Source: Cephalotus follicularis (lineage: Eukaryota; Streptophyta; Magnoliopsida; Oxalidales; Cephalotaceae). From it: a stretch of DNA of 64,000 nucleotides. The stretch covers positions 303,462-367,461 of the forward strand of contig BDDD01000998.1 of assembly GCA_001972305.1 (NCBI GenBank), in the 5' to 3' direction. Shown here in pieces: positions 12,140 through 53,806 of the stretch. A program made the translations under genes and the position numbers. Position 1 is the stretch's first letter; the number at the start of each line of letters is the position of its first letter. A model generated the notes under the pieces. It saw nothing but the letters and a program-made list of their open reading frames with translations, had not been told where the DNA came from and ran no database searches.

Positions 12140-12302
12140 GTCAACGCTTAAGCTTAAAGTGCCAACAGTTAAGGTCAAAGCGTCGAAGCTTTAGTATAGA
12201 AAATTAAAAGTCAAATTAGACCCTTTAAGTGTCAACGTTCTGGTTATAGCGTCGACGTCTCGACTCAAAGCGCTGACGGTTCTCATTAAAGCGTCGACGC
12301 TT
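12140..12302. repeat. GTCGACGC-type array in Athila LTR, 21-bp pitch
   Basis: Cores start at about 12140 (GTCAAC), 12161 (GCCAAC), 12182 (GTCGAA), 12231 (GTCAAC), 12251 (GTCGAC), 12272 (GCTGAC) and 12293 (GTCGAC). Steps are 21, 21, 49, 20, 21 and 21 bp. One further copy lies near 12376. The motif is the same as in LTR E, although Athila and Tekay are separate Ty3/Gypsy lineages. Confidence 0.8.
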
Positions 12303-12948
12303 AAAATTTCAGTTCAATTATTCATGTGGATGCCAAACATTAAAGGAAGTGAATCTCGGAACAACACACCAAAACGTCGACGCCAAAGACTTAAGCTTCG
12401 ACGCTTACGGCGTATCAGGCAACAAATTTGGAAAGTTTTTACAGTTTTAGTTAGATTGTAATAGTATATTTTTTCCATTTTTTCCGCATTAGGTGAGAGT
12501 ATAACAAGGAAACAATAAGTCACTCATAAGGAGGTCTGATTTTGGAGAAAGAGAGCTGCTGCTAGATGAAGAATTCCTTGAAGATTATTGCTGCTACCAT
12601 CGTCATGACCGACTAAGTTTCTTAATCCCTGGATGTAGATGAACCCATGTTTTATATATATATTAAGTTCTGGTTTTCTGGTTTAATAGCTTGTTTGTAA
12701 GACAATCTTTTTTTGTTAATGTATGTGGAACATTGATGAGAAGGAATTTTAATGATATAAAATTTGTTTCGATGTTTTAGTGCTTGTAGCTCTAATTCAT
12801 TTACATCATGCGTTGCTTCTTACTGTGATATTAACCAATCATCCTTTCGAGAGTATCAAGGTTTGATAGGATAGGCTGTACCTAGGCTAAATCATTATTT
12901 TCGGTGATATCTGTGATATTAAAATTAAACCCGAATTTATGCCATGAA

Positions 12949-12972
12949 TATATATATATATACACACACATG
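12949..12972. repeat. (TA)n(CA)n microsatellite
   Basis: An alternating TA tract runs directly into a CA tract. Confidence 0.85.
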
Positions 12973-13267
12973 CGGGGATTCTCACATCCATGAGATAGTT
13001 TTCTCATCTTACTTTCATATTTATTTATTCACATTGCTTTAGATATTTAATTTGAATTGTTTAATTTCTCATAGCCAAAGTTTAATCCAATTCAATCCTC
13101 TTGTGCAATTATTTTATTTAGTGTTTATTATTTCTGTTTAATTGCATACTACTTTCATTTTTATAGTAAATCATCACAACTCTTCGTGAGAACGATCCAT
13201 ACTTTCCATTTGGTAAATTGTTAGATTAGGGTAATTTTGAAATGGTTCAACGACACGAACAAAATTT

Positions 13268-13284
13268 TGGCGCCGTTGCCAGGG
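13268..13284 (+). other. Primer-binding site, tRNA-Asp type
   Basis: TGGCGCCGTTGCCAGGG closely matches the complement of the tRNA-Asp 3' end. This is the primer site long described for Athila-lineage elements. It fixes the element's orientation as plus and the LTR end just upstream. Confidence 0.9.
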
Positions 13285-13399
13285 AGCTTGCGCATCATTC
13301 CTATAAATTTGAAGTTAGTTTCGCTGTATAATATTTAGTTAGAATTTCCCTTCTTTGTTTCATTTTAGTTAGGTGCATGCTAGGTCACCGATCATTAGA

Positions 13400-14126
13400 T
13401 TCCAAAATAGCTACCTATGACCTAAAGATCCAAAGAATACTGGCTGGCATTAGAGCGAATAACAGAATGGTTGAGAACATTGACGCACCCCAAAGACGGC
13501 CCTAAAGTGAACATTTTACGCCAGGTGCATATACCACTGCCTCATGTATTAGGGTGCCTACTGTCCAAGCAGCTCAATATGAGATCAAGTCTAGCATTAT
13601 ACAGATGTTACCATCCTTTTATGGACTTCCCGCAGACGAACCGTATAAGCATTTGGATGAATTCATTGAGATATGCTCCACATTCAAAATTCAGAACTTG
13701 TCGGAGGATGCCCTTAAGCTAATTTTGTTTCCATTTTCATTAAAGGATAGAGCTAAATAATGGCTCCATTCCTTGAACTCTGTGATCATCACCACATGGG
13801 CACAATTACAACATGAATTCCTCAAGAAATATTTTCCCATACGTAGGACCAACCAGATAAGGCGAGCTCTCACTAGCTTTCGCAACAAGATGGTGAGCAG
13901 TTTCACGAGTCCTGGGAAAGATTAAAGGACCTCATTAGGAAATGCCCCCATTATGCCATTCGTAAATGGCAGTTATTCCAATGCTTCTATGATGGACTGA
14001 CCGTACAAAATAGACAGATGGTGGATGCTTCTTGTGGAGGTAAGGAGGATTGTTTTGCCATAGATATGATAGATGAGATGGTATCCGAGTTGGAACCTGA
14101 GACTCTTGTGAATAACTCTTTGTAGC
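13400..14126 (+). pseudogene. Athila-type gag, disrupted
   Basis: Gag forms the virus-like particle that packages retrotransposon RNA. The retrotransposon gag domain is recognisable: 'AAQYEIKSSIIQML' (near 13570), 'PYKHLDEFIEICSTFKI', 'LILFPFSLKDRAK' then a stop where W is expected (near 13758), 'TWAQLQHEFLKKYFPIRRTNQIRRAL' (about 13790-13870), and after a frameshift near 13895 'WQLFQCFYDGLT'-like sequence and 'QMVDASCGG' (about 14020). The primer site lies about 120 bp upstream, so the N-terminal segment is short or the start is lost. At 14126 gag jumps straight into a pol linker, so the C-terminal gag and protease have been deleted. The wording is typical of the Athila lineage rather than Tekay. 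Confidence 0.85.
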
Positions 14127-14598: not shown

Positions 14599-17500
14599 TG
14601 TAACAACCCCGATTTGGAACCGAGATCACTCCCGATTCGGGATCGGTGTATCACACAAAATTGAGCTAAAAACATGTCAAAAATCTTAATCTTAATCATC
14701 ATCATCATCAAATATGCGGTGGTTCAAAAATCTGAAAACATGTATAAACCTTAACATAAACTCCAAAATAAAAATTTTTGTTAATAACAAAGGTCAACAT
14801 ATGATCATAATACAACTATTATTCAAATGACACAATCAAACTCCTAAGTGATCCTCTGACAAAGGTTAACTCTCTCATCATACTTGCCCCAGAAGCTCCT
14901 GATAACCTGCCGCATGGAAAACAAAAATACGACTGAGCAAACCTCAGTATGGATATAGAATCATAAAATAGTTTACGAACAAAACAGAACAGTTACGAAT
15001 CAAAACAGAACAGTTATGAAACAAAACAGAACAGTTCAAAATAGTACGAATCTTTTACAAAAATAGAGTAATTCATAAATAAACCAAATTTATGCAATTT
15101 CAATGGTATTCATGTCAAACATGAAAATCAATAATCTTTCATATGAAACTTACAAAAGTAAACATATGCATATAGGTTCACAAACCTTCATAAAACAAAT
15201 ATAAAATTTCCGTTCATATCAGTTTCCAAAAATGTTTCCAAATAGAGGTTAATACTGAGATATGCAATGACACATTAAATACATACATGTATGCAGTTGG
15301 TTTGCAAAGCCCACATGCTGCAACGACGTGTACGGCACTACACTATCAATTCCCATAACATAACATAACATATAACTAGGATCGATCCATACACCCCTAT
15401 CACAAATCCTACTCAAGGATATCATAAACATAGAGGGACGTCGTAGACTAATCACACCGCTACAGAAGTGTCATGTCCCCGTGCCAGGCCTACGACATGC
15501 CTATGGTACGCCCCATAGGTGGGTACAAATAAACTCAGTACTTTACCATTTAAAAAACATTGATTTTATCATAATTGATTTTAAAGCACATAAAAGGTTT
15601 TCTGAAACATATCCAGAAATCGTTATCAAACGATATTATTTCATATAACACATACTTTCGTAATCAGAAATCAACTCATTTATTTTCACAATAAAGAGAC
15701 GATTGCATAACATTTCGAAAACATATCATAGCTGAATTACAAAGCCAGAAAATATTCACTTTCATAAAAATATCAACTGACTTTATTTCAAAACCTATCA
15801 AAATACGAAGCATATCCGAGTTCATAAAACCGAAGGAATGAAACAAGGAACGAATATCCTTACATATACATTAAAAACCAAAACTGAATTTATTTGAAAT
15901 AATTCAGATGTCCAAGAAGAGAAATATCCGTACTTAGTTCACAAAAGCATAAAACCACAAGAGTGCATCAAAGAACGCAGTATCCATACTAAAGGCATAA
16001 CCGAATTTATTTCAACATAAACCGGAGAAAATTCCAAGAGCGAAAATCAATACTTTAAATCATAAAGGCAAAAACTGGAATCATCTCATTACAACCAAAG
16101 GAGATATCAAGAAAGGAACTAACCTTATATTTCATTAAACAGTAAAAATTGAATTTATCAAAATCCAAAACATGGGATGATAACCAAAGGCGAAGAAGCC
16201 ATACATATTAAATTTGTAAAGCTAACTTTTTCCTCATAATAAAATCAATAAGAGCATCAAAGAACAAATGATCCGTACTTATTTTACCAAAAGCAAAAAC
16301 TAAACTTTTTCTAATAAAATCAGCAGATAGCCAAGAATGAGAAAATCCGTACCTCATGAAATCACAAAAATAACATCAAGAATATATATCAAAAATTATC
16401 TAGACCGCTCCTCAGTTGTTGCAAATATCTAACAGAAATAAAAATCGTTCTCATAAGGACTTGAAATAAAATCAGACCTCGACTCATGGGTCATTGTACA
16501 CTGATCATGACCATATAATATAATGATAGGTTCGATAAGTCCAATTTCTGGAAGCCTCATCTATACATAATTTTGAATTCACTAAAGTAAGTCCAACTGG
16601 TCGTCAAGGTCATTCAAGTTCGAATCATAAAACAAGTTCATCTCATACTATCGTAGAAACAGATACAAAAATACAGAATTCAATAGAAAACAGAATTTAA
16701 CGGAGCAGAGTTCAGAGTTTACCAAAAACAGACAGAACGTAGCACGAAGCCAGAATCACGTAGTGGAACTGGATCGGATCACACCTATGCGGAGAATGGA
16801 GCCGGAAAGGCTATCTGAAACGCGTCGCCGGAGACTGTCGTGCGTTCGCTCAAGCACCGCCACTGGCCGACGCGTGGGCTCAAGCGCCACCTGTTATGCA
16901 CAGTCACCGATTAGCCACTAAAAAGGGCAGAGCTAGAACGCCAGAGGTCGGGGACCACAAATATGGGGTGTGTTTGTCACGGCGCCATAGCATCTGGTCG
17001 GAATGAATGTATTTGATCACAGTTGACTTCGTCATCGATCTGCATTATCGATGTCATCAAGGGTCAGGGCTTGTCAGGTTCGATTCATCTCGATGCAAGG
17101 GGTCCGAATATGGGCTCGCCTTGCCTTGACTGTCGCTGGATACAGAGATATGGTTGTCGATAGTGGTGGGGAGAGAAGACGTCGTGCAAGCATGAGGGGT
17201 TATTGGTCAGAGCGGGATGGCATCTGGTGTGCTCAGAAGGCTATGGGGGTTCGACCGGTACCTTCACCGACGTCAGATTGGCACAAGAGCCGACTGCAGG
17301 AGCTAAATAGGAGAGAGAGCGGGAGAGAGGGTGGCGGGGAGAGAGAGGGAATGGGAGAGAAAAGAGAAAAAATAATATAAAATAGGGTTTTTGATTTTTT
17401 TGAAAGCTGAAATTGGGTTTTAACAAATAAATAAAAGCAAAATTTGTTTTATTCATTTATAGTATTGCTATCAAAACCTACTAGTCTAAGGCTAAAGCCC

Positions 17501-20782: not shown

Positions 20783-22337
20783 TGTAATACCATGTTTATC
20801 GGTGTGCATATTTCGGGCTTTTGATCGGTTTTACTATGTAGTCTGTGTGCTTTATGTTGGGTTATGTGTTGTGGGCTGACTGATACCGGCTTTGGTTGGG
20901 TGTGTTAGTATGTATATGAATATGTAAAGTTTGTTTTATTTTATTTATTTACTTATGAATCAATTTTTATTTTAAAGAATTAAAATTAATCCTTTTAAAT
21001 TAATTTCCTTTTTCCCTCTCTCTCATCTCACCCTTTCTCCCGATTCCCTCTCTCTCCTACCTTCCAATTCCGTATGTCTCTCCTTCTCATAACTCCCTCA
21101 TCCAAAAATCTTCTCCTCTTTCCTAATCCAACCAGATTTTGTCTCCACCTTTCCTAATCCTATCCAAAAATTTTGCTCCCTTTCTGTTTAAGTAAGAATG
21201 CAATCACTGCTATGTCACCATCTTGTATCTTTTGCTCCTGGTCATTGCCGTGTCTTGCCAACTGGGAGTTCATTGTGTTTACCATGCAATTGAATTATCA
21301 AGTCAGGTTTGTGCTTAGTAACTTCAGTCCTTGGATTATTCTGTTTTGCTTGGACATTCTTTTAACAGGCTTAGAATCTTTGTGTTTTTGTTCCCTTTTG
21401 AACAGTCGTTGTATACCACTGATTTTATTATCTCTACAACAGTTTTGCCATCCATCGGTTGGTTTCCTCTGTTGTTATAGCTTAGTAATTGGTTTTAGTC
21501 ATATGTCAATCCGATTTTATTGCGTATAGGCTGCTAGAGTGTTATTGGTTTTGGTTCCTGCCTTCTTTTCTTTTTGTTGTTCTGTCAATTGATTTCTAAG
21601 TCTGTTAGCAAGCCTTTAAGCATCTCGATAAAGTTGTGTAAATCTAGTATTGATTAATGACAAGGTTTTTGGACAAAAAATTGGATTATGCATATGTATG
21701 AAATGGTTTAAGTTCATCACTCACTTTAAGATGGTCATTGTTGAGTACCTCTTTTAAATTCAGTGTTATGTTGCTGTTTTTAAATACCAAATAGAGTCCT
21801 TTTAAGTGTTTTTAGTACTCTGGTATTGTGGAATCTAAGTTTTGACGGCAAAGTTGCATATAACTGCCATATTCTTGTTTTCTGTCGCCCAGGACAGTCG
21901 GCTGCCTATATAAACAGTCGACTGTTTTGCCTTGAGTTATCGGCTGCCTTGTGAATCAGTCGGTTGTTTTGTCTTGCACAGTCGACTGGACACCTATCAC
22001 AGTCGACTGGCTGCACTCCAGTTTCTGTAGTCGGCTGCCTATGTTGTACAGTCGACTGCCACCTTTTGTACAATCGACTAGAGTCCTGTATCAGTAGGCT
22101 GGAGTGTCCTGTAATTTCCTGTTTTGATATTCTCGTATCCGTTTGTCCGTTCGTTGAATTCAGGTCTGTTTTAAATACCGTTATAATTCTAATTTATGCC
22201 TACAATTATTTTTTAGATCCTTATATGAATGGTATTTATATTATATACATTATTGTGATACGTGGAACAGTTAGAATTAATCGGTCTATTCGTAAGATAT
22301 TCTGTGATCGCATATGGTACGGATATTTCTCTTCTTA
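20783..22337 (+). mobile_element. LTR A1, left part (split by element F)
   Basis: It starts TGTAATACCATG and is about nine-tenths identical over the first 200 bp to LTR A2 at 51422. A CT-rich tract at 21007-21065 resembles the leader that follows a promoter in other LTRs here, though I see no convincing TATA box. The left flank is TCCTT. Element F interrupts it at 22338; the right part resumes at 31408. Without F and its target duplication the LTR is about 2.7 kb. Confidence 0.88.
21895..22101. repeat. CAGTCGACTG palindrome array in LTR A1
   Basis: Ten motif positions start at about 21895, 21915, 21937, 21957, 21979, 22000, 22028, 22049, 22071 and 22092. Four are perfect CAGTCGACTG. Nine of the steps are 20-22 bp except one of 28 bp. 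The same register is found in LTRs A2 and B. Confidence 0.88.
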
Positions 22338-23589
22338 TGTAACACCCCGCGCCTGCTGGGAAGACACGTGGCATTACTCTCAATCCAATAACAATACAAT
22401 GGTCAGGACTAGCAATATAAAAATGCGGAAAAACTTAAAACTTTGCAATACATATCATTACACGGAAGATACAATACAGCAATCCATCTTTACAGTACAT
22501 TACAATACGATCCTTTACAATACCAATCTTTTACAATACACTTATCAACTCTTCAATACAGCACTACTAAGAACTCTGTTAGATCCAGACGAACCCCTAG
22601 GTCGATGGAATCTTCAATCCTTCGATTCGCTGCCACCTACTACCCTACCTATGCCGCACACAAAGGTACAACACAGCCCCACCCTGAAGGATGGGGTTGG
22701 CCATACTGGCTAAGCAGAAACCTCATGCAGCATGTATGCATGTACAATGTGAAATATCAGTGACAATCTATGCAATAACAATGTACGGTGTACAATATCA
22801 ATGCATGACATGGCAAATTCATATGTACAGTTGGGGATCAGACTACCCGTAGGAAAATGGCCCATAACAGAGCATACGGATAGGATCTATAACAATCAAT
22901 CAACGACAGACAATCAATGGTGGTGTATAAAACACCCAATCAATCAATCAATATCCTATAGAGCATGCGACCCTGGGTCAATACAATGCCAATCAGTTAG
23001 CAGTGATCAATACCACAGAAGGTAGTCCTTCAAAAAAGGTGGGAGATCTATCTACGGTTCTCATATTGATTAGGTCTGGGACTCATAAATCTTCTAGCCT
23101 ATGGCTGTGTCAATACAATCTCGATGAGCTACAACCGAGGGAGCTACTGATACCGTTCGGGAGCTACGGCCTCAAGGGAGCATCAATCGACAATCAATCA
23201 GTACCGCTCCTCAGCGGGTCAATACAGTACAGTGAATGAAATGATCGACGAGATAGTTGGACAGAGTCAACAACCTAACATACCGACACGAATCATAAGG
23301 TCTCTCTATAGGATCCATACAATACAATTAATCATGTTAGTACAATATCATTACAATGTCAATAAGCAAATTCAATGAGTGACGGTATCTAATGGAGGGT
23401 TGGGAATGTGCGTCCAACTTACCAACTTAGACTCACATCACTCATGACTCAAGCAATCAATCGGTCAGTATAATAATTAAAACCATTTTTAGACACTTGA
23501 ACACCTCTAGTGAGGCTCCAATCAAGTGGCAATGTGAAAAGAAGTTGAAAGCCAGCTTTAAAGTAGTTCAAAACTCTTTTCAGTCCATT

Positions 23590-23935
23590 AGGCGTCGATG
23601 TCCTTGGTGAAAGACGTCGACCCATCTGTAAAATGGTGGAAAGACGTCGATGTCTTTGAAAGACACCATTGTCTTTCTCTATTTGTGTAGAGATCTGGCT
23701 GAAATATGTTGATGTCCTTGGAGAAAGACGTCGACGCGTTTCAAGAAAAATAGCCTGGGAATGCGCATCGATGTTCGGCATCGATGTCATTTATAGGGGA
23801 AGACATCTTGACGCAAAGACGTCGATGTCTTTCAAAGACATCGATGACTTTGCTACAGAATCACAGGTACAGCACTCTGAAGCGAAATACATGGACGTCC
23901 ATGGGCTAGGGGTCAATGTCTTTGCTGGGCAGGGT
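23590..23935. repeat. GACGTCGATGTC palindrome array, left LTR of F
   Basis: About a dozen copies of AAAGACGTCGATGTCTTT or its variants lie here, many self-complementary. Neighbouring units in opposite register (AAAGACATCGATGTCTTT) could pair with each other. The right LTR keeps the same array at 30388-30720. Confidence 0.85.
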
Positions 23936-24443
23936 CGAGTTTTGTGCAGAAAAACTAGCCAATCTCATACCAAAATAAAATTTCAAGCCATTCTTTGAAA
24001 ACCATGGTTTAAAATCAATCATTTGAGGTTAGTAAAACTTGTTACAACCTTCAAAATTCAGTTTCAATCCTCCTAGATCAGATAGATCAAGGAAATCAAT
24101 AAAACCCTAGTTTTTCAATTCAATGAAATACAATCACTCAATTCAATCAGTCATTCAATCAATTATGCAATTAAGAAATAGGCAACCAAGTAGGGAAGTC
24201 CTACCTTCAATGAAGCTTCAAAAGTTGAGCTATCGATCGGTCAATCGGCTGAAATCACCCAAGAATCAGCTGCTCTGCCACTCAATCGGCAACCCACACT
24301 GGCAATTGCTATCCTTGTTGAAGGAGATGCAATCAGGAGCTGCTATGGAGATGGGGGGAGGCTGCCAGCAAGAGAGAGAAAGGGAGAAGGATAGAGAGAG
24401 GGAGAAGAATGAAAGAATGAGAGAATGAGAGTGAGAAATTGGC

Positions 24444-24452
24444 TTATATAGT
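24444..24452 (-). promoter_or_regulatory. TATA box, left LTR of F
   Basis: On the minus strand 'actatataagcc' lies about 170 bp from the LTR start and is followed by a CT-rich leader. The right LTR has the same arrangement. Confidence 0.65.
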
Positions 24453-24619
24453 AAGTTTGACCAACTCTCCGATACTCAACCCAAAATCCTGACTATACAT
24501 GCAAATAACCAATACAATAACAATAGGTATAAGAATACCTCAATTCAATAAAATTCGATATAGTACAATACGGTACAATGTCTGCATGAACAGTACAAAA
24601 GGGAATTTGTGTCGTCACA

Positions 24620-29124: not shown

Positions 29125-30387
29125 TTCTGTAAAACCCCCGCGCTCGCTCGGTGGACACGTGGCATTACACTCAATCCAATAACAATACAATGGTCAGGAC
29201 TAGCAATATAAAAATGCAGAAAAACTTAAAACTTTGCAATACATATCATTACGCGGAAGATATAATGCAACAATCCATCTTTAAAGTACAGTACAATACA
29301 ATACAATCCTTTACAATACCAATCTTTTACAATACACTTATCAACTCTTCAATACAACACAACTAAGAACTCTATCAGATCCAGACGAACCCCTCGGTCG
29401 ATCGAATCTTCAATCCTTCAGTCCGCTACCACCTACTGCCCTACCTATGCCGCACACAAACGTACAACACAACCCCAACCCGAAGGATGGGGTTAGCCAC
29501 ACTGGCTAAGCAGAAACCTCATGCATCATGTATGCATGAACAATGTGCAATATCGGTAAAAATATATGCAATAACAATGTGCGGTGTACAATATCAATGC
29601 ATGACATGGGAAATGCATATGTACGGTTGGCGGTCAGACTACCCGTATGGCAATGGCCCATAACAGAGCATACGGATAGGATCTATAACAATCAATCAAT
29701 GGCACACACTAAATGGCAGTGTATAAAACACCTAATTAATCAATCAATATCCTATAGAGCATGCGACCCTCGCTCAATACAATGTCAATCAGTTAGCAAA
29801 GATCAATCCCACAGAAGGTAGTCCTTCAAAAAAGGTGGGAGATCTATCTACGGTTCTCAGATTGATCAAGTCTGGGACTCATAGATCTTCCAGCCTATGG
29901 CTGGGTCAATACAATCTCAATGAGCTACAACCGAGGGAGCTAGTGACACCGTTTGGGAGCTACGGCCTCAAGGGAACATCAATCGACAATCAATTAGTAC
30001 CGCTCGTCAGCGAGTCAATACAGTACAGTGAATGAAATGATCGACGAGATAGGTGGACAGAGTCAACAAGCTCACATGCTGACACGAATCATAAGGTCGC
30101 TCTATAGGATCCGTACAATACAATCAATCATGTCAGTACAATATCATTACAATGTCAATAGGCAAAGTCAATGAGTGACGGTATCTAATGGAGGTTTGGG
30201 AATGTGCATCCAACTTACCGACTTAGATTCACATCACTCATGACTCAAGCAATCAATCGGTCAGTACAATCATTAAAACTGTTTTCAAACACTTGAACAC
30301 CTCAAGTGAGGCTCCAGTCAAGTGGCAATGAAAAAAGAAGTTGAAAGCCAACTTTAAAGTAGTTAAAAACTCTTTTGAGTCCATTAG

Positions 30388-30720
30388 GAGTCGATGTCCT
30401 TGGTGAAAGACGTCGACGCATCTGTAAAATGGTGGAAAGACGTCGATGTCTTTGAAAGACATCGATGTCTTTCTCCATTTGTGTAGAGATCTGGCCGAAA
30501 GACGTCGATGTCCTTGGAGAAAGACATCGACGCGTTTCAATAAAAATATCCTGGGAATGCGCATCGATGTTCAGCATCGATGTGTTTTCTGGGGAAAGAC
30601 ATCTCGAGGCAAAGACGTCGATGTCTTTCAAAGACGTCTGTGTCTTTGCTGCGGAATCACAGATACAACACTCTGAAGCAAAATACATCGACGTCCATGG
30701 GCTAGGGGTCGATGTCTTTG
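30388..30720. repeat. GACGTCGATGTC palindrome array, right LTR of F
   Basis: TCGA cores occur at about 30391, 30413, 30443, 30462, 30505, 30527, 30564, 30577, 30604, 30618, 30688 and 30709, most inside GACGTCGAYGTC or GACATCGATGTC, and the exact palindrome ACATCGATGT occurs. Several steps are 19-22 bp or near 43 bp; others are irregular. Confidence 0.85.
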
Positions 30721-32657: not shown

Positions 32658-33086
32658 TCAGTGTCTGTTAAATCATTACAGGTTAGTAATCCTGGCTGTG
32701 ATGAATTGTTTCACATTGTTGTTGGTTTTCTTATGCATATAGGCTGTTAGAGTTGTGATTCCAGCCACTTAAATCTATGTCATAGTTTATGGACCAATTG
32801 ATCAGTCCTTAGCATCTGTTTATGTTGTAATATAATCTCAGAAACTGAATGTGACTTTGAACAGTAGATTGGTTTGTTATATGTAGGTTCTATTTAGATG
32901 CCATTTGGTCTCTTTTCCCATATTTAGTCACTGGTCACATGGTAATGTCAATTCTATGTTTTTACACAGTCTAAATGTCATATAATGTCACATGCATATG
33001 CTCATGGGTCTCTGGCATAGAATTATACATGTTTAGGCAAGTTTTTGAATTGAAAATGTCAAGTTCTACTATTCTGTCGTCCAGAA

Positions 33087-33294
33087 CAGTCGGCTATGTT
33101 TATGGACAGTCGGCTGGTTTGGTTGTGTAGTCGGTTGTCTTATGAAAACAGACGACTGTTTTGTGTCAGGTAGCCGACTGGACCTCTATCACAGTCGACT
33201 GGCTGAAAGTCTGGTTTGAGTAGTCAACTGGGCTTTATGAGTAGTCGACTGCCAAGCTTCCAACAGTCGACTGGAGCTCTGTAATAGTCAGTTG
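33087..33294. repeat. CAGTCGACTG palindrome array in LTR B1
   Basis: Motifs start at about 33087, 33107, 33128, 33149, 33171, 33192, 33221, 33242, 33264 and 33285: steps 20, 21, 21, 22, 21, 29, 21, 22, 21. Confidence 0.88.
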
Positions 33295-33845
33295 TTTTGC
33301 TCAGAAAATTCCTATTTTAAACTATTTTGATCCGTTTGTTCATTGACTCAATCCGGGTCTTTTCTAAACACTGTAAAGAGTTTGTTTTATGTCCCTAATG
33401 TTTCTTAGACCCTTATATGAATAGTTTTGTGTCTTTTAGATTGTTGTGCTTCAAAGGGGAGTTTGAGTTAATAATCTTTCTGTAAGTGCTTTTGTGAATG
33501 CAAAAAGGTACGGATTTCTATCGTTCTTTGGCTATCTGGTTTTTATCGAACTAAAATCAGTTTTATGCTATGTTTCTTCGTTTTATGGACTTGGTTATGT
33601 TTTATGGTATGTTTCAAAAATAAAGTCGGTTTTTGAAATTTTATGAATTTAAATGTTTTTGACTTCATGATACGTTATGAAATGATCATCTCTTTATATC
33701 GAAAAAAAATGAGTTGATGTTTTGACTATGAAATCCAGGTTATGATATCGTTGGTGAACAATTTTCAAATATGTTTTGAGAAAGCATATTTATGTGTTTT
33801 AAACGTGATGTTTTCGAAATGATTGAATAGTAAGTATTGTACCCA

Positions 33846-39062: not shown

Positions 39063-39449
39063 TGATGAATTGTTTCACATTGTTGTTGGTTTTCTTATGC
39101 ATATAGGCTGTTAGAGTTGTGATTCCAGCCACTTAAATCTATGTCATAGTTTATGGACCAATTGATCAGTTCTTGGCATCTTTTTATGTTGTAATCTAAT
39201 CTCAGAAATTGAATGTGACTTTGAACCGTAGATTGGTTTGTTATATGTAGGTTTAGTTAAGATTCCACTTGGTCTCTTTTCTCGTATTTAGTCACTAGTC
39301 ACATGGTAATGTCAATTCTATGTTTTAACACTGTATAAATGTCATATAATGTCACATGCATATGCTCATGGGACTCTGGTATATAATTATACATGTTTAG
39401 GCAAGTTTTTGAATTGAAAAATGTCAAGTTCTGTTGTTCTGTCGTCCAG

Positions 39450-39661
39450 AACAGTCGCTTGTTCTTGTGGACAGTCGGCTGGTTTGGTTGTGTAGTCAGC
39501 TGTCTTAAGAAAATAGTCGCTGTTTTGTGTTGCGTAGCTGACTTGACCTCTGGCACAGTCGACTGCCTGTAAGTTTGGTTTGAGTAGTCGGTTGACCCTT
39601 ATGAGTATCCGACTGCCAAGCTTCAGACTGTCGACTAGAGCTATGTAACAGTTAGCTGTTT
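39450..39661. repeat. CAGTCGACTG palindrome array in LTR B2
   Basis: About ten diverged motifs (CAGTCGCTTG, CAGTCGGCTG, CAGTCGACTG, TAGTCGGTTG and others) occupy the place of the array in B1 and B3, with steps close to 21 bp and some single-base losses. Confidence 0.82.
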
Positions 39662-40193
39662 TGCTCAGAAAATTCCTATTTTCAACTGTTTTTATCTGTT
39701 TGTTCGTCGAATCAATCCGAGTCTTTTCTAGACACTGTAGGAATCTGTTTTATGTTTCTTAGACCCTTATATGAATAGTTTTGTGTCTTTTAGATTGTTG
39801 TGCTTCAAAGGGTAGTTTGAGTTAACAATCTTTCCGTAAGTTCTTTTGTGAACGCAAAAAGGTACGAATTTCTATCGCTCTTTGGCTATCTGGTTTTTAT
39901 CGAACTAAAATCAGTTTTAGGCTATGTTTCTTCGTTTTATGGACTTGGTTATGTTTTATGGTATGTTTCGAAAATAAAGTCGGGTTTTGACATTTTATGA
40001 ATTTAAATGTATCTGACTTTATGATACGTTACGAATGATAATCTCTTTATATCCAAAAAAAATGAGTTGATGTTTTGACTATGAAATGTAGGTTATGATA
40101 TCATTGGTGAACAATTTTCAAATATGTTTTGAGAAAGCATTGTGTTTTTAAAGTGATGTTTTCGAAATGATTGAATACCTAATATTGTACCCA

Positions 40194-44230: not shown

Positions 44231-45736
44231 CAGCCGCAGTTGATAACTGATATGGAGCGGATGGATTTACATCTGTATGTTCAGGGTTCTGAAGGTTGTG
44301 TTGCTGCTTTGAATGTAGAGCCTACTATTATATCTCGGATTAAGACAGCTCAGAGTTATGATTGTGAGCTTTGCGCCTTAGTCCAGAATGTTGAAAAGGG
44401 TAAGCAATCAGAGTTACGTATGGATGAGCATGGTGTGATATGGTTGGGTAGTCGGTTGTATGTTTCGGCAGATTCTTCTATCAGAGATGATGTTTTGTCA
44501 GAGGCACACAGTTCTCCATTTTCTATACATCCGGGTTCTATGAAAATGTATAGAGACTTGAAGAAGAACTTCTAGTGGAATGGAATGAAAAAGGATGTAG
44601 CCGAGTATGTTGGGAGATGTTTGATCTGTCAGCAGGTAAAGATTGAGCACAAGCATGCTAGTGGTTTGTTACAGCCCTTGGAAGTTCTAGTATGGAAATG
44701 GGAGAGCATATCGACGCCGAGAACTTTCAGAAGGAACGATGCTATCTGGGTAGTAGTGGATCAATTGACTAAATCGGTTCACTTCTTGGCTATCCGAGAG
44801 GATTTTGCTGTGGATTGTTTGGATGAGGTGTTTCAGCAGGAGATAGTGAGACTCCATGGGACTCTGGTATCCGTTGTTTCGGATAGGGATACTCGTTTCA
44901 CTTCGCAGTTTTGGAAAGGGTTCCAGAAAGCTTGGGGTACTAGGCTCAGTTACAGTACAACTTTCCATCCACAGACAGATGGGCAGACTGAGAGGACCAT
45001 CCAGACCTTAGAGGATATGTTGAGGTCTTGTGCGTTGGAGTGGACTGGGACGAGTATTTGAGTTTGGTGGAGTTTTCCTACAATAACAGTTGGCACACTA
45101 GTATCGGTATGGCTCCGTTTGAAGCTCTTTATGGGAGGAAGTGTCGAGCTCCAACATGTTGGGATGAGGTTGAAGAGCGAGTTATCGAGGGAGCCGAGCT
45201 AGTGCAGATCACTACGGAGAATGTGGCAATAGCAAGGGAGAGATTGAAAACAGCTCAATCTCGACAGAAGAGTTATGCGGACAAATATAGGAGGGACTTG
45301 GAGTTCAAGGTAGGTGAACATGTGTGCTTAAAAGTTTCACCTTGGAAAGGAGTCCGACGTTTTGGGCTGCAGGGAAAGTTAAGTCCACGGTATATTGGAC
45401 CTTTTGAAGTTTTGGAGAAGGTAAGTGCAGTTGCTTATCGTTTAGCTTTGCCTCCGTAGTTAGCACATGTCCATAACGTGTTCCACGTGTCTTTGCTGAG
45501 AAGTTTTCAGTATCATCCCTTGCATGTGGTTCACTATCCAGTGGACAGCATACGGGAGGACCTATCTTCTAACGAGGAGGACGAGGCTATTGTGGATCGA
45601 CAGGAACGGGTGACACGTAGCAAGACCTTCCTTTTGTGAAAGTTCTGTGGAGGAATCATCCAGAATGTGAGGCCACTTGAGAACTGGAGGAGCACATTCG
45701 GGAGCGATATCCGCACTTGTTTGCTGTTCATATATG
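44231..45736 (+). pseudogene. Copy B-2 integrase with chromodomain-like tail
   Basis: The HHCC finger is present ('SPFSIHPGSMKMYRDL', 'RCLICQQVK'). An 18-bp in-frame gap near 44713, relative to B-1, removes the MDFVMG segment and with it the first catalytic Asp ('WKWESISTPRTFRRND'). The second Asp (VVSDRDTRFTSQFWKGF) and the Glu (TERTIQ) are kept. A 7-bp loss near 45050 shifts the frame ('EWTGTSI' instead of 'EWTGNWDEYL'). The C-terminal domain and the tail 'VDRQERVTRSKT', then 'KVLWRNHPECEAT', stop, 'ELEEHIRERYPHLF', reach to 45736, where LTR B3 begins. No polypurine tract is visible between tail and LTR. Confidence 0.92.
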
Positions 45737-46860
45737 TGTATTACGGACTGTTTATATGATGTTTTCGGGCTTCCAATATTGTTTTGTTTTAAAGTCTGTT
45801 GCCCTGTGTTTTGGGCTTATGTGATTTAAGCTGATTGATACCAGCCTGAATTTTTGGATATGTTACTGAACTGTTGGGTTGGGCCTATGTTTATAACTTT
45901 TATTTTACCAAAACTTTATTCTATTTTACAATTTTCAAATTATTAAAACAATTTCCTTTTTCCTTTTTTTTAAAATTTCTTATTATCGTTTATTTTTATT
46001 TTTATTTTTCCTTTTTCCTTATACTTCTTCTTTACTTTCTTCTCCCTCTTTCTCCCGTAACTCTCTTCTTCTCCCTATCTTCTCACACGCTTTCAATCTT
46101 AATTTCCATTCTCATTGCCTGAAAATCCTCTCTTCTTTCCTATGTAATCAGAATTTGTCTCATATTTTCCGTTTAGAGAGTGACATTCCATTGTTATATG
46201 TTGTTCTCTCTCTCTATGCATAACACACTACCGAATTCTGCATTCTTGAAGCCTGTGTTGATTCTTGTGGAGTTGTTTTGTCAGTTTACCGAGGTAATCT
46301 CTTCTGTTGTTCTTTTGGGTTGAGTTCCTTTGGTTGGTTTAAGGCTGTTTATGTATTCTTTGTTTTCTCTCTTTGCTTTCCTGTAAACACCAGAGTAATC
46401 TTGAACAAGTGGTGTTCTTCTTGCTGTTTTTCAGTGTCTGTTAAATCATTACAGGTTAGTAATCCTGGCTGTGATGAATTGTTTCACATTGTTGTTGGTT
46501 TTCTTATGCATATAGGCTGTTAGAGTTGTGATTCCAACCACTTAAATCTATGTCATAGTTTATGGACTAATTGATCAGTCCTTGGCATATGTTTATGTTG
46601 TAATCTAATCTCAGAAACTGAATGTGACTTTGAACAGTAGATTGGTTTGTTATATGTAGGTTCTGTTTAGATGCCATTTGGTCTCTTTTCCCATATTTAG
46701 TCACTGGTCACATGGTAATGTCAATTCTATGTTTTTACACAGTCTAAATGTCATATAATGTCACATGCATATGCTCATGTGTCTCTGGTATAGAATTATA
46801 CATTTTTAGGCAAGTTTTTGAATTGAAAAATGTTAAGCTCTTCTATTCTGTCGTCCAGAA

Positions 46861-47068
46861 CAGTCAGCTGTTCTTATGGACAGTCGGCTGGTTTGGTTGT
46901 GTAGTAGGATGTCTTATGAAAATAGTCGACTGTTTTGTGTTGGGTAGCCGACTGGACCTCTGTCACAGTCGACTGCCTGTAAGTCTGGTTTGAGTAGTCG
47001 ACTAGACCTTATGAGTAGTCGACTGCAAAGCTTCCAACAGTCAACTGGCGCTCTGTAACAGTCAGCTA
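46861..47068. repeat. CAGTCGACTG palindrome array in LTR B3
   Basis: Ten motifs start at about 46861, 46881, 46902, 46923, 46945, 46966, 46995, 47016, 47038 and 47059: steps 20, 21, 21, 22, 21, 29, 21, 22, 21. The sixth is a perfect CAGTCGACTG and the fourth TAGTCGACTG; each motif allows CAG/TAG at the left end. Confidence 0.9.
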
Positions 47069-47613
47069 TTTTGCTCAGAAAATTCCTGTTTTCAACTGTT
47101 TTGATCCGTTCGTTGAATCAATTCGGGTCTTTTCTAAACACTGTAAGGAGTCTGTTTTATGTCTCTAATGTTTCTTAGACCCTTATATGAATAGTTTTGA
47201 GTCTTTTAGATTGTTGTGCTTCAAAGGGGAGTTTGAGTTAACAATCTTTCTGTAAGTGTTGTTGTGAACGCAAAAAGGTACGGATTTCTATCGTTCTTTG
47301 GCTATCTGGTTTTTATCGAACTAAAATCAGTTTTATGCTATGTTTCTTCGTTTTATGGACTTGGTTATGTTTTATGGTATGTTTCGAAAATAAAGTCGGT
47401 TTTTGACATTTTATGAATTTAAATGTTTCTGATTTTATCATATGTTGCGAAATGATCATCTCTTTATATCGAAAAATAAATGGGTTGATGTTTTGACTAT
47501 GAAATGTATATTATGATATCGTTGAACAATTTTTAAATATGTTTTGAGAAAGCATATTTATGTGTTTTTAAAGTGATGTTTTCAAAATGATTGAATACTG
47601 AGTATTGTACCCA

Positions 47614-47772
47614 CCTATGCGTCGTACCATAGGCATGTCGTAGGCCTGACACCGGGACATGACACTTCTGTAGCGGTGTGATTAGTCTACGGCATCTCTC
47701 AATGTTATTAATAAATCCCATGAGGTGGATTTATGGATCCACTATGTATGATAGAGGCGTATGAATCGATTC
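47614..47772 (+). ncRNA. Conserved hairpin block in LTR B3
   Basis: CCTATGC (47614-47620) with CCATAGG (47627-47633, one mismatch), CATGTC/GACATG, CTGTAG (47668-47673) with CTACGG (47687-47692, one U.G wobble), and GAATCGATTC (47763-47772). Confidence 0.5.
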
Positions 47773-48461
47773 TAGTATATGGATATGTGATATGAAATGA
47801 TATGTGAGAATTTACTTGTGTAGTGTCGTGCACTTCAATTCTAATGGGCATGTGGAATTAGCGTCTCCCTTGTCAATCTATGTTATGAAATGTGATATGA
47901 TATGTGGCTCAATATGACTTTATCAATCATGAAATGATATTTTTGAAATGTTTCGTAAATGTTTCGAATGATATGAAATTGGTATTTTATGGAAATTCGG
48001 ATATGATTTCAAAGAATGTTTAAGCTGTTTTAATTGCTGAAGATTTTCTGTTATGAGTTTTATTGAGATCTTACTGCTTTTAAATTCATCGTTCACTGCT
48101 TTTACCTTCTTTATCTGTACTGAGGTTTGCTCAGTCGTATTTTTGTTTTCCATGCGGCAGGTTATCAAGAGCAGCGGGGGATGTGTGAATGAGAGTTGGC
48201 CACCTTTATGTCGTGGATCCCTAGGAGTGTGATCCCTATATGTATCTTCTGTTATAGTGGTCATTAACAATATCTTATTTTGGTTTATGTTTCTGTATTT
48301 GACTTTTGAAATATGTTAAGTTTCAAGTTTGGAACAGTTTTTCAGTTATGCTATGACCGTCATGTTTTTTGGCTAATAAAGTTATGTTTATCTTCAGTTA
48401 TATTTTGCTATAGGTTCTGTATTTTGACCTGTGACGACTCCCGCCATCCGGGGGTGTTACA

Positions 48462-49300
48462 GTATTGACTGGTTGGATCAGCATCGAGCTACGATTGATT
48501 GTCACGCTCGGAGGATTTTGTTCGCAGATGTGGATCGACCTGATTTTATTTATCAGGGTTCACGGCCAATGAAGGATGTTAATATTATTTCAGTTTTGAA
48601 AGCTAAGAATTTGGTAGCTAAGGGAGCTGAGGGATTCTTAGTTGTTGTGAAAGATGTCTCTAAGTATGTACCTCACCTTGAGGACTATCTTGTGGTTAGA
48701 GAGTTTTCAGATGTGTTTTTGGAGGAGTTACCGGGATTGCCACCGCAACGGGAAGTGGAGTTTACCATCGGGCTCATTCCTGGGGCGGCACCTATATCTA
48801 AAGCACCGTATAGGATGGCACGACTTTAGTTGCAAGAGCTTAAGGAGCAGTTGCAAGAGTTGTTAGATCGGGGTTTTATCCAGCCGAGTGTTTCACCGTG
48901 GCGAGCTCCGGTTCTATTTGTCAAGAAGGATGGTTCTATGAGGCTGTGCATAGATTATAGAGTGCTGAATCATATTACTATCAGGAACAAATACCCTTTG
49001 CCTAGGATTGATGACTTATTGGATCAACTCCAAGGTGCTTGGTATTTTTCTAAGATCGATTTGAGGTCCAAATATCATCAGCTACGAGTAAAAGATGAAG
49101 ATGTACCCAAGACTGCTTTCCGGATACGGTATGGGCATTATGAGTTTCTGATGATGCCGTTCGGACTTACGAATGCACCGACAGCCTTCATGAATCTGAT
49201 GAATAGGGTATTTCATGAATTTTGGATCAGTTTGTGATTGTGTTTACAGATGACATCCTTGTGTACTCGAAGTCGAAGGAGGAACATTAAGATCAACTTT
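48462..49300 (+). pseudogene. Third pol: protease end and RT
   Basis: The frame begins abruptly inside the protease ('[33 protein letters not shown]') immediately after LTR B3. RT follows: '[53 protein letters not shown]', '[13 protein letters not shown]', '[25 protein letters not shown]'. A one-base loss near 49215 shifts the frame before '[14 protein letters not shown]', so the catalytic motif reads FTDD. A stop near 48827 replaces E or Q. It is more diverged from B-1 and B-2 than they are from each other, so it probably belongs to another element, possibly the one flanked by LTRs A1 and A2. Gag and the protease active site are absent. Confidence 0.9.
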
Positions 49301-50099
49301 GTATAGTTCTGGGAATTCTGAGGAAGAATAAGCTATACACAAAGTTTTTAAAGTGTGAGTTATGGATGGAACAGGTGGCATTCTTGGGCCACGTGGTTAC
49401 TGCTGAAGGTATCAGTGTCGATCCTGCTAATGTTGAGGCTATTACCAAATGGCCGAGACCTACCACAGTAACGGAAGTAGAAGCTTTTTGGGTTTGGCTG
49501 GATATTACAGGCGGTTTGTGGAAGGCTTTTCCTCCGTAGCCTTGCCACCGACTCAGCTTATGCGAAAGGGAGCTAAGTTTGTGTGGAACGAAGAACAGGA
49601 GGCAAGCTTTGAGAAATTGAAGAAAGGCCTTGTGTCCGCACCGATTCTTCGTCTGCCGTCTGGGTCAGGTGGGTACCAGATTTACAGTGATGCTACCAAG
49701 AAGGGTTTGGGGTGTGTTCTAATGCAGCATGGTCATGTGATAACATATGCTTCTAGACAATTGAAGCCTTATGAAGTGAACTACCCTACACATGATCTTG
49801 AGTTGGCAGCAATTGTCTTTGCATTGAAAATCTGGAGACACTACTTGTACGGAAAAACTTGTGACGTTTTTACCGATCACAAGAGTCTCAAGTACATTTT
49901 CATGCAGAAAGAGTTGAACATGCGTCAGAGGAGGTGGTTGGAACTTCTAAAAGACTATGATCTGAATATTCAGTACCACCCTGGTAAAGCAAACGTGGTA
50001 GATGATGCTCTTATTAGGAAGAGTTTTGGGAGCATAGCGGCTTTGCTTACTCAGCCGCAGTTGATAGCGGACATGGAGCGGTTGGATTTGAATTTGTAG
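49301..50099 (+). pseudogene. Third pol: RT connection and RNase H
   Basis: It contains '[34 protein letters not shown]', a frameshift near 49480, then a long open frame to 50099: '[81 protein letters not shown]', '[23 protein letters not shown]', '[51 protein letters not shown]'. All RNase H catalytic acids are present, unlike in B-1, B-2 and F. It is the best-preserved RNase H in the window. A stop at 50097 ends the frame. Confidence 0.93.
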
Positions 50100-51421
50100 C
50101 TGATATGAATATAGAACCTACTCTCGTTTCTCGGATTAAGGCGGCTCAGAGTGACGATGGTGAGTTATGGGCCTTAGTCCAGAATGTTGATGAGGGAAAG
50201 CAGTTAGAATTCCGTATGGATGATCATGGTGTTATATGGTTGGGTAGCAGTTGTGTGTGCCGACTGATCTTGCTATCAGAGAGGCTGTCTTGTCTGAAGC
50301 ACACAGTTCTCCATTTTCTATACATCTGGGTTCTACAAAAATGTATGGATACTTAAAGAAAAATTTCTGGTGGAATGGAATGAAGAGGGATGTAGCTGAA
50401 TTCGTTGGGAGGTGTTTGGTCTGTCAGCAGGTCAAGATTGAGCACCAGCGAGCTAGTGGATTGTTACAACCCTTGGTGGTTCCAATTTGGAAATGGGAAA
50501 CTATTGCGATGGATTTTGTTACTGGTCTGACGAGAACTTTTAGGAGGAATAATGCTATTTGGGTTGTGGTGGATCGATTGACCAAATCGGCTCACTTTTT
50601 GGCTATCCGTGAGGATTTCTCTATGGACAGTTTTGCGGAAGTTTACAGGCAGGAGATTGTGATACTTCATAGGACACCTGTATCCATTGTTTCGGATGGG
50701 GATCCCCATTTCATTTCGCGGTTTTGGAAGGGATTTCAGAAAGCTTGGGGTACGAGGCTCAATTACATTACAACTTTCCATCCACAGACAGATGGGCAGT
50801 CTGAGAGGACCATTCAGACCTTATAGGATATGTTGAGGTCTTGCGCTTTGGAGTGGATTGGAAACTGGGATGAGTATCTGAGCTTGGTGGAGTTTGCCTA
50901 CAACAATAGTTGGCATGCTAGTATTCGTATGGCTTCGTTTTAGGCTTTGTATGGGAGGGGGTATCGAGCTCCAACACGTTGGGATGAGGTCGGAGAACGA
51001 GTTATTGAGGCACCCGAGCTAGTTCATATCACTACTGATAAAGTGACCATAGCTAGGGAGAGACTAAAGGCAGCTCAATTTAGACAGAAGAGTTATGCAT
51101 ATAGGCATCGGAGGGACGTGGAGTTCAAAGTAGGTGAACATGTGTTCTTGAAGGTTTCACCTTGGAAAAGAGTCCGGCATTTTCGGTTGAAGGGAAACTT
51201 GAGTCCTCGGTATATAGGACCCTTTGAAGTTCGGGAAAAGGTGGGCGCAGTTGCATATCGGTTAGCTTTGCCTCCGTAGTTAGCACACACTCATAATGTG
51301 TTCCATGTGTCTCTGTTGAGGGGTTATCAGTATCATCCCCTGCATGTGGTCCACTATCCTTTGGACAGTATTCGGGAGGATTTATCTTGTGATGAGGAGG
51401 CCGAGGCTATTCTGGATCGGA
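50100..51421 (+). pseudogene. Third pol: integrase, truncated before the chromodomain
   Basis: After a frameshift near 50250 an open frame of 191 codons carries the HHCC finger ('AHSSPFSIHLGSTKMYGYL', 'RCLVCQQVK') and the core 'WKWETIAMDFVTGLTRTFRRNNAIWVVVDRLTKSAHFLAIREDF', 'VSIVSDGDPHFISRFWKGF', 'HPQTDGQSERTIQTL', with D, D and E of the triad intact. A stop at 50824 (TAG, GAG expected) and another near 50941 precede the C-terminal domain ('HVFLKVSPWKRVRHFRLKGNLSPRYIGPFEV'). The sequence ends at 'CDEEAEAILDR' where LTR A2 begins at 51422, so the tail and polypurine tract are missing. Confidence 0.92.
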
Positions 51422-52535
51422 TGTAATACCCTGTTTATCCGTGTGCATATTTCGGGCTTTTGATCGGTTTTGTTATGTAGTCTTTCTACTTTATGTTGGG
51501 TTATGTGTTGTGGGCCGACTGATACCAACTTTGGTTGGGTATGTTAGTATGTATATGCATAAGTAAAGTTTGTTTTATTTTATTTATTTACTTACAAATA
51601 AGTTTTTATTTCAAAGAATTAAAACTAATCCTTTTTAATTAATTTCCTTTTTCTCTCTCTCTTATCTCACCCTTTCTCACGATTCCCTCTCTCTCATATC
51701 TTCCAATTTGGTATGTCTCCCCTTCTCATAACTCCCTCATTCGAAAATCTTCTCCTCTTTCCCAATCCAACCACATTTTGTCTCCACTTTTCCTAATCCT
51801 ATCCGAAAATTTTGCTCCCTTTCTGTTTAAGTAAGCCTGCAATCACTGCTATGTCGCCATCTTGTATCTTTTGCTCCGGGCCATTGCCGTGTCTTGCCAA
51901 CTGGGAGTTCATTGTGTTTACCGTGCAATTGAATCATCAAGTCAGGTTTGGGCTTAGTAACTTAAGTCCTTGGATTATTCTGGCTTGGTTGGACATTCTT
52001 TTGACAGGCTTAGAACCGTTGTGTTTTGCTTCCCTTTTGAACAACCGTTCTATACCACTGATTTTGTTATATGCGCAACAGTTTTGGCATCCATCAGGTT
52101 GCTTTCCTCTGTTGTTATAGATTAGTAATTGGTTTTAGTCATATGTCAATTCGATTCTATTGCGTATAGGCTGCGAGAGTGTTATTGGTTTTGGTTCCTG
52201 CCTTCTTTTCTTTTTGTTGTTTTGTCAATTGATTTCTGAGTCTATTAGCAAGCCTTTAAGCATCTCGATAAAGTTGTGTAAATCTGGTTTTGATTAATGA
52301 CAATGGTTTTTGGACAGAAAATTGGATTATGCATATGTATGAAATGGTTTAAGTTCATCACTCACTTTAAGATGGTCACTGTTGAGTACCTCTTTAAAAT
52401 TCAGTGTTATGTTACTGTTTTTAAATACCAAATAGAGTCCTTTGAAGTGTTTTTAGTACTCTTGTATTGTGGAATCTAAGTTTTGACGGCAAAGTTGCAT
52501 ATAACTATCATATTCTTGTTTTCTGTCGCCCAGGA

Positions 52536-52742
52536 CAGTCGGCAGCCTATATGAACAGTTTACTGTTTTGCCTTGAGTAGTCGGCTACCTTGTGAATTAG
52601 TCGGCTATTTTGTCTTGCACAGTTGACTGGTCCCCCGTCATAGTCGACTGACTGCACTCCAGTTTGTGTAGTTGGCTACCTAGGTTGTACATTCGACTGC
52701 CACCCTTTGTACGGTGGACTGGAGTCCTGTATCAGTAGGCTG
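52536..52742. repeat. CAGTCGACTG palindrome array in LTR A2
   Basis: Motifs start at about 52536, 52556, 52578, 52598, 52620, 52641, 52669, 52690, 52712 and 52733: steps 20, 22, 20, 22, 21, 28, 21, 22, 21. Individual motifs are decayed, but the spacing is retained. Confidence 0.85.
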
Positions 52743-53321
52743 GAGTGTCCTGTAATTTCTAGTTTTCATATTCTCGTATCCGTTTGTCCGTTCGTTGAAT
52801 ATGGGTCTGTTTTAAATACCGTTATAATTATAATTTATGCCTACAATTATTTTTTAGATCCTTATATGAATGGTTTTTATATTATATACATTATTGTGCT
52901 ACGTGGGACAGTTAGAATTAATCGGTCTATTCGTAAGATATTCTGTGATCGCATGAGGTATAGATATTTCTCTTCTTGGACATCTTATTTATTCGAAATA
53001 AATTCAGTTTTCTGAATATGACCTTTTCAGTCTATGACTCCGTTAAGTTTTGGATTTTGAAAATAAAGTCACTTGATATTTCTATGAGTTAAATATTTCT
53101 GACTTTATAAATTCAGCTATGATATGTTTATGAAGTGTTATGAAATCATCTCTTTACCGTGGAATTAAATGAGTTGATTTTTTCGATTATGAAAGCATGT
53201 GTTTATATCGTTTGATAACGATTTATGAATATGTTTTGGAAAACCGTTTCTTATGTGTTTTAAATTGATTATGATAAAATCAATATTTTGAAATGGTGAA
53301 GTACTGAGCTTTTTGTACCCA

Positions 53322-53457
53322 CCTATGGGGTGTACCATAGGCATGTCGTAGGCTTGGCACGGGTACATGACACTTTCCGTAACTGTGTGATTAGTTTACG
53401 GTGTCTCTCTGTGATATCCTTGGATAGGATTTGTGATAAAGGTGTATGGATCGATCC
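53322..53457 (+). ncRNA. Conserved hairpin block in LTR A2
   Basis: CCTATGG (53322-53328) with CCATAGG (53335-53341), CCGTAA (53377-53382) with TTACGG (53396-53401), and GGATCGATCC (53448-53457). The second stem is broken by a base change. Confidence 0.5.
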
Positions 53458-53613
53458 TAGTTTTATGTTATGTGATATGTTATGTAATGACCGGAAGTTT
53501 TGAGAACAAGTTGCTCTAAGTCTTGCATGTTGAGGATTATGTTGTTTGACGAATGCTACAAGGGACCCGTAGTTTGACCCTCACGCTCGGGGGGTTCGGG
53601 GGTGAAGTTAAGC

Positions 53614-53806
53614 GGCGACGCTTGGGGCAACCGACGACGCTCCAAATGTAAGCTACGACGCTTTGAAGTCAAGTGTTTTAGTTGACCTAGACAAGACCTT
53701 AAAGTGGCGATGCTTTGTAGGAAAGCGTCAGCGCTTTAGTCGGGAAGTAAGTTGAAGAACTCAGGATAAGCCCGTGTCCGGCGACGCTTATGGAGAAAGC
53801 GTCGAA
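53614..53806. repeat. GTCGACGC-type motif array in LTR C
   Basis: Cores start at about 53614 (GGCGAC), 53633 (GACGAC), 53654 (TACGAC), 53681 (GTTGAC), 53706 (GGCGAT), 53727 (GTCAGC), 53780 (GGCGAC) and 53801 (GTCGAA). Three steps are 21 bp. Unlike in F and J, the array is upstream of the TATA box. Confidence 0.7.

Follow-up and report, generated by a model that had tools for sequence, protein, structure and literature searches.

Arrays of TCGA-centered palindromes with a modal 21-bp pitch in long terminal repeats of Ty3-type retrotransposons of Cephalotus follicularis

The window analyzed here is a 64,000-nucleotide stretch of the genome of Cephalotus follicularis (assembly GCA_001972305.1, contig BDDD01000998.1, positions 303,462 to 367,461 of the forward strand), and self-comparison, primer-binding site (PBS) words and the ends of the long terminal repeats (LTRs) identify it as a nest of Ty3-type LTR retrotransposons. 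The LTRs carry arrays of short palindromes whose units most often lie 21 bp apart, and in one pair of related families the palindromes bear a sign of purifying selection. An initial annotation had described such TCGA-centered arrays in this window; the observation is confirmed and extended here, and its interpretation is partly supported. The LTRs and PBS words that define the elements are as follows.

896, minus strand: start of LTR S, a relative of E, which runs off the window
3737, plus strand: start of the E 3' LTR
13268..13285, plus strand: Asp-type PBS word (1 mismatch in 18), with the LTR called Athila in the initial annotation lying upstream
20783, plus strand: start of the B 5' LTR, split near 22336/31408 by element D, with its PBS at 32559
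About 22338-24619 and 29125-31407, minus strand: the LTRs of element D
Before 34698 and 41047 (PBS-like words) and near 48461: ends of the three copies of LTR A
51422, plus strand: start of the B 3' LTR, cut near 53482 by element C
53483, plus strand: start of LTR C, with a perfectly matching iMet-type PBS word at 58720

The words used in the search are what we take to be Asp-type and iMet-type PBS sequences. The Asp-type word has a single match in the whole window, at 13268, and the iMet-type word, at up to two mismatches, has ten, five of them at LTR ends (B, A1, A2, C and D). A tRNA-Met PBS is described for most chromoviruses and for none of the non-chromoviruses (PMC6317226). Pfam matches across the elements comprise RVP_2, RVT_1, RNase H, Integrase_H2C2 and SH3_Tf2-1, not all of them present in each element, and a Chromo match is seen in E only, under the cut-off (17.9 versus 25.1 bits). 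The reverse transcriptases (RTs) of the Asp-PBS, A and D elements were compared by blastp: that of the Asp-PBS element shares 37-43% amino acid identity with those of A and D, which share 64-70% with each other. With its non-Met PBS and an RT apart from those of A and D, the Asp-PBS element is of the non-chromovirus (Ogre/Tat/Athila) kind.

The arrays use three palindromes that differ outside a common GTCGAC/TCGA core: P1, CAGTCGACTG; P2, the 14-mer AAGCGTCGACGCTT; and P3, AAAGACRTCGAYGTCTTT. P3 belongs to D, a family that the initial annotation did not list.

668..860, minus strand: P1 array of LTR S, 6-7 units
947..1338, no strand assigned: P2 array S_P2, 13 units, outside LTR S, with 3' LTR-like matches to E at 2014-2404
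3931..4100, plus strand: P2 array E_a of the E 3' LTR, 5 units
4844..5012, plus strand: P2 array E_b of the E 3' LTR, 6 units
12113..12409, plus strand: P2 array of the Asp-PBS LTR, 9 units, upstream of the Asp-type PBS
21891..22106, plus strand: P1 array of the B 5' LTR (B5), ten aligned units
23587..23925, minus strand: P3 array of one D LTR
30383..30720, minus strand: P3 array of the other D LTR, 12 units
33083..33299, plus strand: P1 array of LTR A1, ten aligned units
39448..39663, plus strand: P1 array of LTR A2, ten aligned positions, 8 at at least 7/10
46857..47073, plus strand: P1 array of LTR A3, ten aligned positions, 9 at at least 7/10
52532..52747, plus strand: P1 array of the B 3' LTR (B3)
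53608..53813, plus strand: P2 array of LTR C, 7 units

Unit counts run from 5 to 13 across the 13 array regions, where shuffles would give 0.5-1.2, and ten of the regions hold at least eight at threshold (E_a has 5 and E_b 6, giving 11 within one LTR, and C has 7). Exact CAGTCGACTG occurs ten times and exact GCGTCGACGC three times in the whole window. At up to three mismatches over 14 bp, P1 and P2 have 32 matches each; the control mean is 2.5 for about 300 palindromes drawn from similar letters, among which the top scorers themselves resemble P1 or P2. Each array uses mainly one palindrome. At thresholds of 8/10 or 10/12, S has five P1 words and no P2 word, the scanned part of B5 nine P1 words and nothing else, the Asp-PBS LTR seven P2 words and nothing else, and the scanned 2 kb of C six P2 words and nothing else; E has six P2 words, one P3-like word and one P1-like stray distant from the arrays, and each D LTR has five P3 words, one P1-like word and two to three P2-like words. 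Wherever the LTR start is known (S, E, C, B5 and D), the arrays sit in the upper half of the LTR. The observed/expected ratio of CpG is 1.2-1.8 in eight of the 13 arrays and 0.5-0.7 in the five A/B arrays, with 0.65 for the window. Of the 23 unit coordinates listed initially, 21 have a 10-mer scoring at least 7/10 within 3 bp (two of the 23 are perfect), and those at 46902 (6/10) and 12161 (5/10) are weak. A window-wide excess of 14-bp dyads (159 versus 98 at a minimum of 6/7) was set aside, much of it being supplied by TA runs.

A recurrent variant of P1, AGTCGGCT (at 33087, 33107, 21895, 22028 and in other units), contains GCCGAC; the sense strand of LTR S carries AGCCGACT in its place. GCCGAC is the core of the dehydration-responsive element, and serves as a lead only. 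DREB, ERF and E2F sites are among those reported to be informative for plant LTRs (PMC11656987).

The pitch was measured on eight arrays, with A1-A3, B3 and D5 omitted as homologues of retained arrays, although E_a and C retain some spacer homology. Among 60 adjacent unit steps, 36 measure 19-23 bp and the modal pitch is 21 bp. Random placement at minimum distances of 10-14 bp gave a mean of 8.4-11.6 such steps and a maximum of 20-24, and none of 20,000 simulations reached 36; tested singly, the arrays gave p values of 0.0012-0.044 each. In A/B, the steps between the ten aligned units are 20, 21, 21, 22, 21, 28-29, 21, 22 and 21 bp, and eight to nine of these units score at least 7/10 in every single sequence. 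Other recurrent steps are 28, 41-45 and 48-53 bp. Over all steps, power at a helical period of 10.25 bp is high (z 10). Conditional periods of 10.25, 12.5 and 22.5 bp (p about 0.005 each, uncorrected) were lost after correction over 56 periods, and a 7-bp rhythm of the steps outside 19-23 bp (cosine p 0.016, uncorrected) is not claimed.

The LTRs of A and B are related (about 67%), as are those of E and C (70% over the 3' part of the LTR), and the separate groups are therefore A/B, E/C (with S), the Asp-PBS element and D. These relations correct the initial annotation. Among A/B, D and the Asp-PBS element, only A and B match in LTR comparison, and E, C and S match the Asp-PBS LTR solely within or at the edge of the arrays. 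With its palindromes masked, the Asp-PBS array aligns no better than shuffles to E_a, E_b, C and S_P2 (four of four comparisons, 12 shuffles each). Smith-Waterman comparison of masked P2 arrays leaves nine of ten pairs no higher than shuffles, the exception being the related LTRs E_a and C (score 17, against a null of 10.3 and a maximum of 12). In three of the P1 arrays, likeness among spacers does not rise above that of shuffled letters (0.25-0.30 versus 0.28-0.30, p 0.36-0.83), and P1 spacers carry no trace of duplication; those of E and C are likewise not alike (p 0.14 and 0.31). The lineages share no detectable homology outside the palindrome, and the earlier statement that unrelated LTRs bear the arrays is borne out by this result together with the RT divergence and the PBS type.

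Selection on the palindromes was assessed in one family pair, by aligning A1-A3 with B5 and B3 (five sequences), within-family differences being taken as mostly post-insertion decay. Between families, the difference is 22% in unit columns, 40% in spacers and 43% in flanks (18-24%, 39-41% and 42-44% when units are defined on one sequence only). Within families the order is reversed, at 16.8% for units, 11.6% for spacers and 8.1% for flanks. The ratio of columns fixed between families to those variable within them is 5:36 in units, 27:27 in spacers and 59:31 in flanks (Fisher p 4e-8 for units versus spacers plus flanks, 1.5e-4 versus spacers, and 2e-7 to 3e-6 with unit calling restricted to one of the five sequences, whichever is chosen). 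With columns holding a CpG in any row removed, the ratios are 5:25, 26:23 and 53:26 (p 0.0018 versus spacers and 1e-5 versus both). When the frame is slid off offset 0, the fixed count climbs from 5 to 24-27 at 9-11 bp. The cleanest comparison is that of the palindrome arms (positions 2-4 and 7-9), which differ by 11.8% within families and 16.2% between them, where spacers differ by 11.6% and 40.4%. The palindromes of A/B were under purifying selection before insertion, while the elements were active, rather than being the relic of a tandem duplication, because the arms decay like spacers within families and diverge far less between them. The A copies share one tangled element and part of their divergence may predate insertion, and the test would therefore be conservative. 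Indels are also few: A1-A3 differ from B5 by two to three single-base indels in the array, compared with an average of 19.5-22.2 gap columns in equal-size windows elsewhere in the LTR (25.1 for A3 versus B3), fractions that are descriptive since the windows overlap; the contrast is smaller for gap events, at 2-3 versus 5.0-5.8.

LTRs S (1-896, minus strand) and E (3735-5240, plus strand) offer a single case of a motif switch. Their starts are identical in 28 of 29 bases, and further in they are 62% identical over 531 alignment columns (112 bits, against a maximum of 29.7 in 30 shuffles). Between the homologous blocks lie a P1 array in S, at LTR offset 77-225, and a P2 array in E, at about 199-360. 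LTRs that are related can thus differ in the specificity of the array found at roughly one place.

We consider it probable that the arrays act as cis-regulatory modules, placed in the upstream (U3) half of their Ty3 LTRs, and that they are recognized by a DNA-binding protein that acts as a dimer and has a different specificity in each family. Every palindrome would be a site for a dimer of a sequence-specific protein, and a spacing of about two turns would let dimers sit side by side. Because the palindromes differ between families outside the common core, the families would either use different host factors or paralogues, or have changed site and factor together. A dimer on spaced sites, in line with the initial proposal, fits the selection and spacing in A/B, and the occurrence of one 14-mer, P2, in two lineages without spacer homology also speaks for this explanation. 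Binding would control LTR transcription or silencing.

Several observations weigh against this explanation. With the 19-23 bp steps fixed, the remaining 24 steps show no significant phasing with the helix (for periods of 10.0-10.5 bp, cosine p is 0.08-0.11), and 28 and 49 bp are not whole turns; because of this, two helical turns is a description of the modal step and not an independent result, and the claim that the sites share one face of the helix gains nothing from the other steps. Two arrays, Asp-PBS (p 0.013) and S_P2 (p 0.004), retain spacers that are weakly alike. Selection can be tested for the A/B pair alone; the D LTR pair, which is expected to record post-insertion decay only, shows just that (units 12.1% versus 8.0% elsewhere). 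There is no consistent TATA word downstream of the arrays. Nine of 12 arrays fold as RNA better than shuffles (z below -2), and variants in A/B lean toward changes that keep pairing through wobble, by 51:20, in counts that include homologous copies repeatedly and so are not independent.

The last two points would favor a role for the array as RNA, in which it is transcribed and neighboring palindromes form hairpins that serve the element (in stability, packaging or dimerization) or become substrates from which the host makes small RNAs. The latter has been proposed for the LTRs of Sireviruses, whose small interfering RNA (siRNA) link (Bousios et al. 2016) is described in PMC10760457. The strongest folds are those of D3 (z -10.4), S_P2 (-6.1), A1 (-5.7) and the Asp-PBS array (-5.1), and 21 of 24 flank windows do not fold better than shuffles, two of the three that do overlapping a neighboring array. 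However, palindrome arrays fold by construction, and the folds of E_a (0.0), B3 (-1.5) and S_P1 (-2.0) are not significant. Pooled variants (C>T 52, G>A 41, A>G 32, T>C 29) are about strand-symmetric, as for double-stranded sites; the A/B lean toward pairing is opposed in D (10:25) and even in P2 (18:23), such that the variant pattern gives no steady support for selection on a sense RNA. Hairpins, moreover, would need no fixed 21-bp step. The structured transcript proposed initially would favor variants that keep pairing, a lean seen in A/B and not in the pooled set. We regard an RNA role as unlikely.

Somewhat harder to credit is an anti-silencing target, in which the sites are docked by a silencing-removing protein, either element-encoded or captured, like VANC on VANDAL elements. 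Such docking would explain why related LTRs such as S and E bear different palindromes, and VANC targets are themselves dense short noncoding motifs that differ between related elements (PMC5735166). Those open reading frames (ORFs) that were scanned, not every one, yield the usual Ty3 domains or nothing, with no candidate binder; the internal regions are broken, so a scan of this kind leaves room for an element-encoded protein. A third proposal, which we hold to be very improbable, concerns origin and is compatible with any function: the P2 array would have passed, through recombination or template switching, from LTRs of one type (E/C or Athila) to those of the other, and the 14-bp palindrome identical in both would reflect common descent. 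Spacer homology was found in none of the four comparisons by a test that does detect E_a/C, although that test would miss an old exchange with saturated spacers. Least credible of all is a neutral relic, a 21-bp unit duplicated in tandem and then decayed without function, named initially as the refuting case: the regular pitch, the weak spacer likeness in two arrays and some 19-22 bp repeats that Tandem Repeats Finder lists within the arrays are in its favor, but it is contradicted for the A/B pair, where palindromes are conserved beyond spacers that decay at an equal rate and the fixed:variable test rejects it, and the P1 spacers are mutually dissimilar.

Beyond the dimer-bound module that we favor, a broader and more doubtful proposition is that plant Ty3 LTRs have convergently come to use palindrome arrays at a fixed pitch of two turns as a general control module. 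The binding partner and all the sites of an array would then change specificity in concert, in the manner of an arms race. The partner may be a host silencer, a host activator or a factor borne by the element, and the related LTRs S and E would record one such switch.

Further features of the window concern the elements themselves. Three consecutive blocks of A-type LTR plus coding sequence, 81-93% alike, lie within B at 32658-51419, an arrangement that suggests nested or tandem recombined copies. Minus-strand pieces resembling the 3' part of the A/B LTR lie inside the Asp-PBS element at 14834-15928, with no array detected in them, and a minus-strand RT fragment at 7574-7864, 58% identical to the D RT, appears to be a further Ty3 remnant. 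The 5.2 kb between the start of LTR C and its PBS contain tandem repeats at 54690-54844 (44 bp, 3.5 copies) and 56771-57093 (26 bp, 12.5 copies). The stretch 10449-11878 is LTR-like and occurs once in the window, its ends being of the TG..CA type (TGTAACACCC..GGGTGTTACA); within it, direct repeats around CCGAGCTC at a pitch of 23-24 bp occupy 11136-11552. LTR arrays here are thus not restricted to TCGA palindromes, because these repeats differ in both motif and pitch.

Repeated transcription-factor sites in U3 are familiar from the 21-bp repeats of the human T-cell leukemia virus type 1 LTR and the repeated boxes of the Tnt1 and Tto1 LTRs, which the present arrays resemble. Those repeats are few and their factors are known, unlike the arrays of 5-13 units described here, for which the factor is putative. 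A limited literature search found no Ty3 counterpart of the palindrome arrays, nothing in the literature searched tied GTCGAC to LTR palindromes or transcription factors, and two paired exact patterns had no matches in IMG/VR viral contigs. A further paper, PMC6911290, deals with palindromes at insertion sites.

The closest precedent is the palindromic repeated motif (RM) in the LTRs of Sireviruses, a Ty1/copia lineage (PMC2829016). There, many copies of one palindrome per element (at least eight) are clustered in the upper, CpG-island-like half of the LTR, a pattern that the arrays here resemble to varying degrees in copy number, position and CpG content; as here, the palindrome varies between elements, and some are TCGA-centered, namely those of a Vitis element, CGGTCGACCG, and of Tnd-1, ACAATCGATTGT. 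In contrast, a CGG-CCG core present in 12 of the 13 published RMs (the exception being Tnd-1) is missing from all three consensus units here, and the hosts here are Ty3 by their domains and RT, and so are not Sireviruses. The RM is described as Sirevirus-specific, and the available part of that text states neither a fixed pitch nor a selection test; in maize, the peak of LTR structure seen in Copia elements is reported to be generally absent from Ty3 elements (PMC10760457). Relative to that precedent, the palindromic arrays here, Sirevirus-like in kind, lie in the LTRs of Ty3 elements, and both their pitch and, for one family pair, selection on them have been measured. Such arrays had been presented as a trait of Sireviruses and linked to targeting by siRNAs; they are now seen in Ty3 LTRs of two lineages, and the modal pitch and the clear sign of selection in A/B, which is lost within families, suggest a module that is functional and more widespread. 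A test that sets within-family decay against between-family conservation needs sequence alone and is applicable to any plant genome, where it could reveal active LTR control sites and, by way of the palindrome, lead to the proteins responsible for driving or silencing very abundant elements. VANC targets on VANDAL DNA transposons offer a second likeness, as dense short noncoding motifs that differ between related elements, although they are not described as palindromes in the available texts and their binder is known and element-encoded, where the one proposed here is putative; they provide a model of how motif and binder can change together (PMC5735166, PMC10398659).

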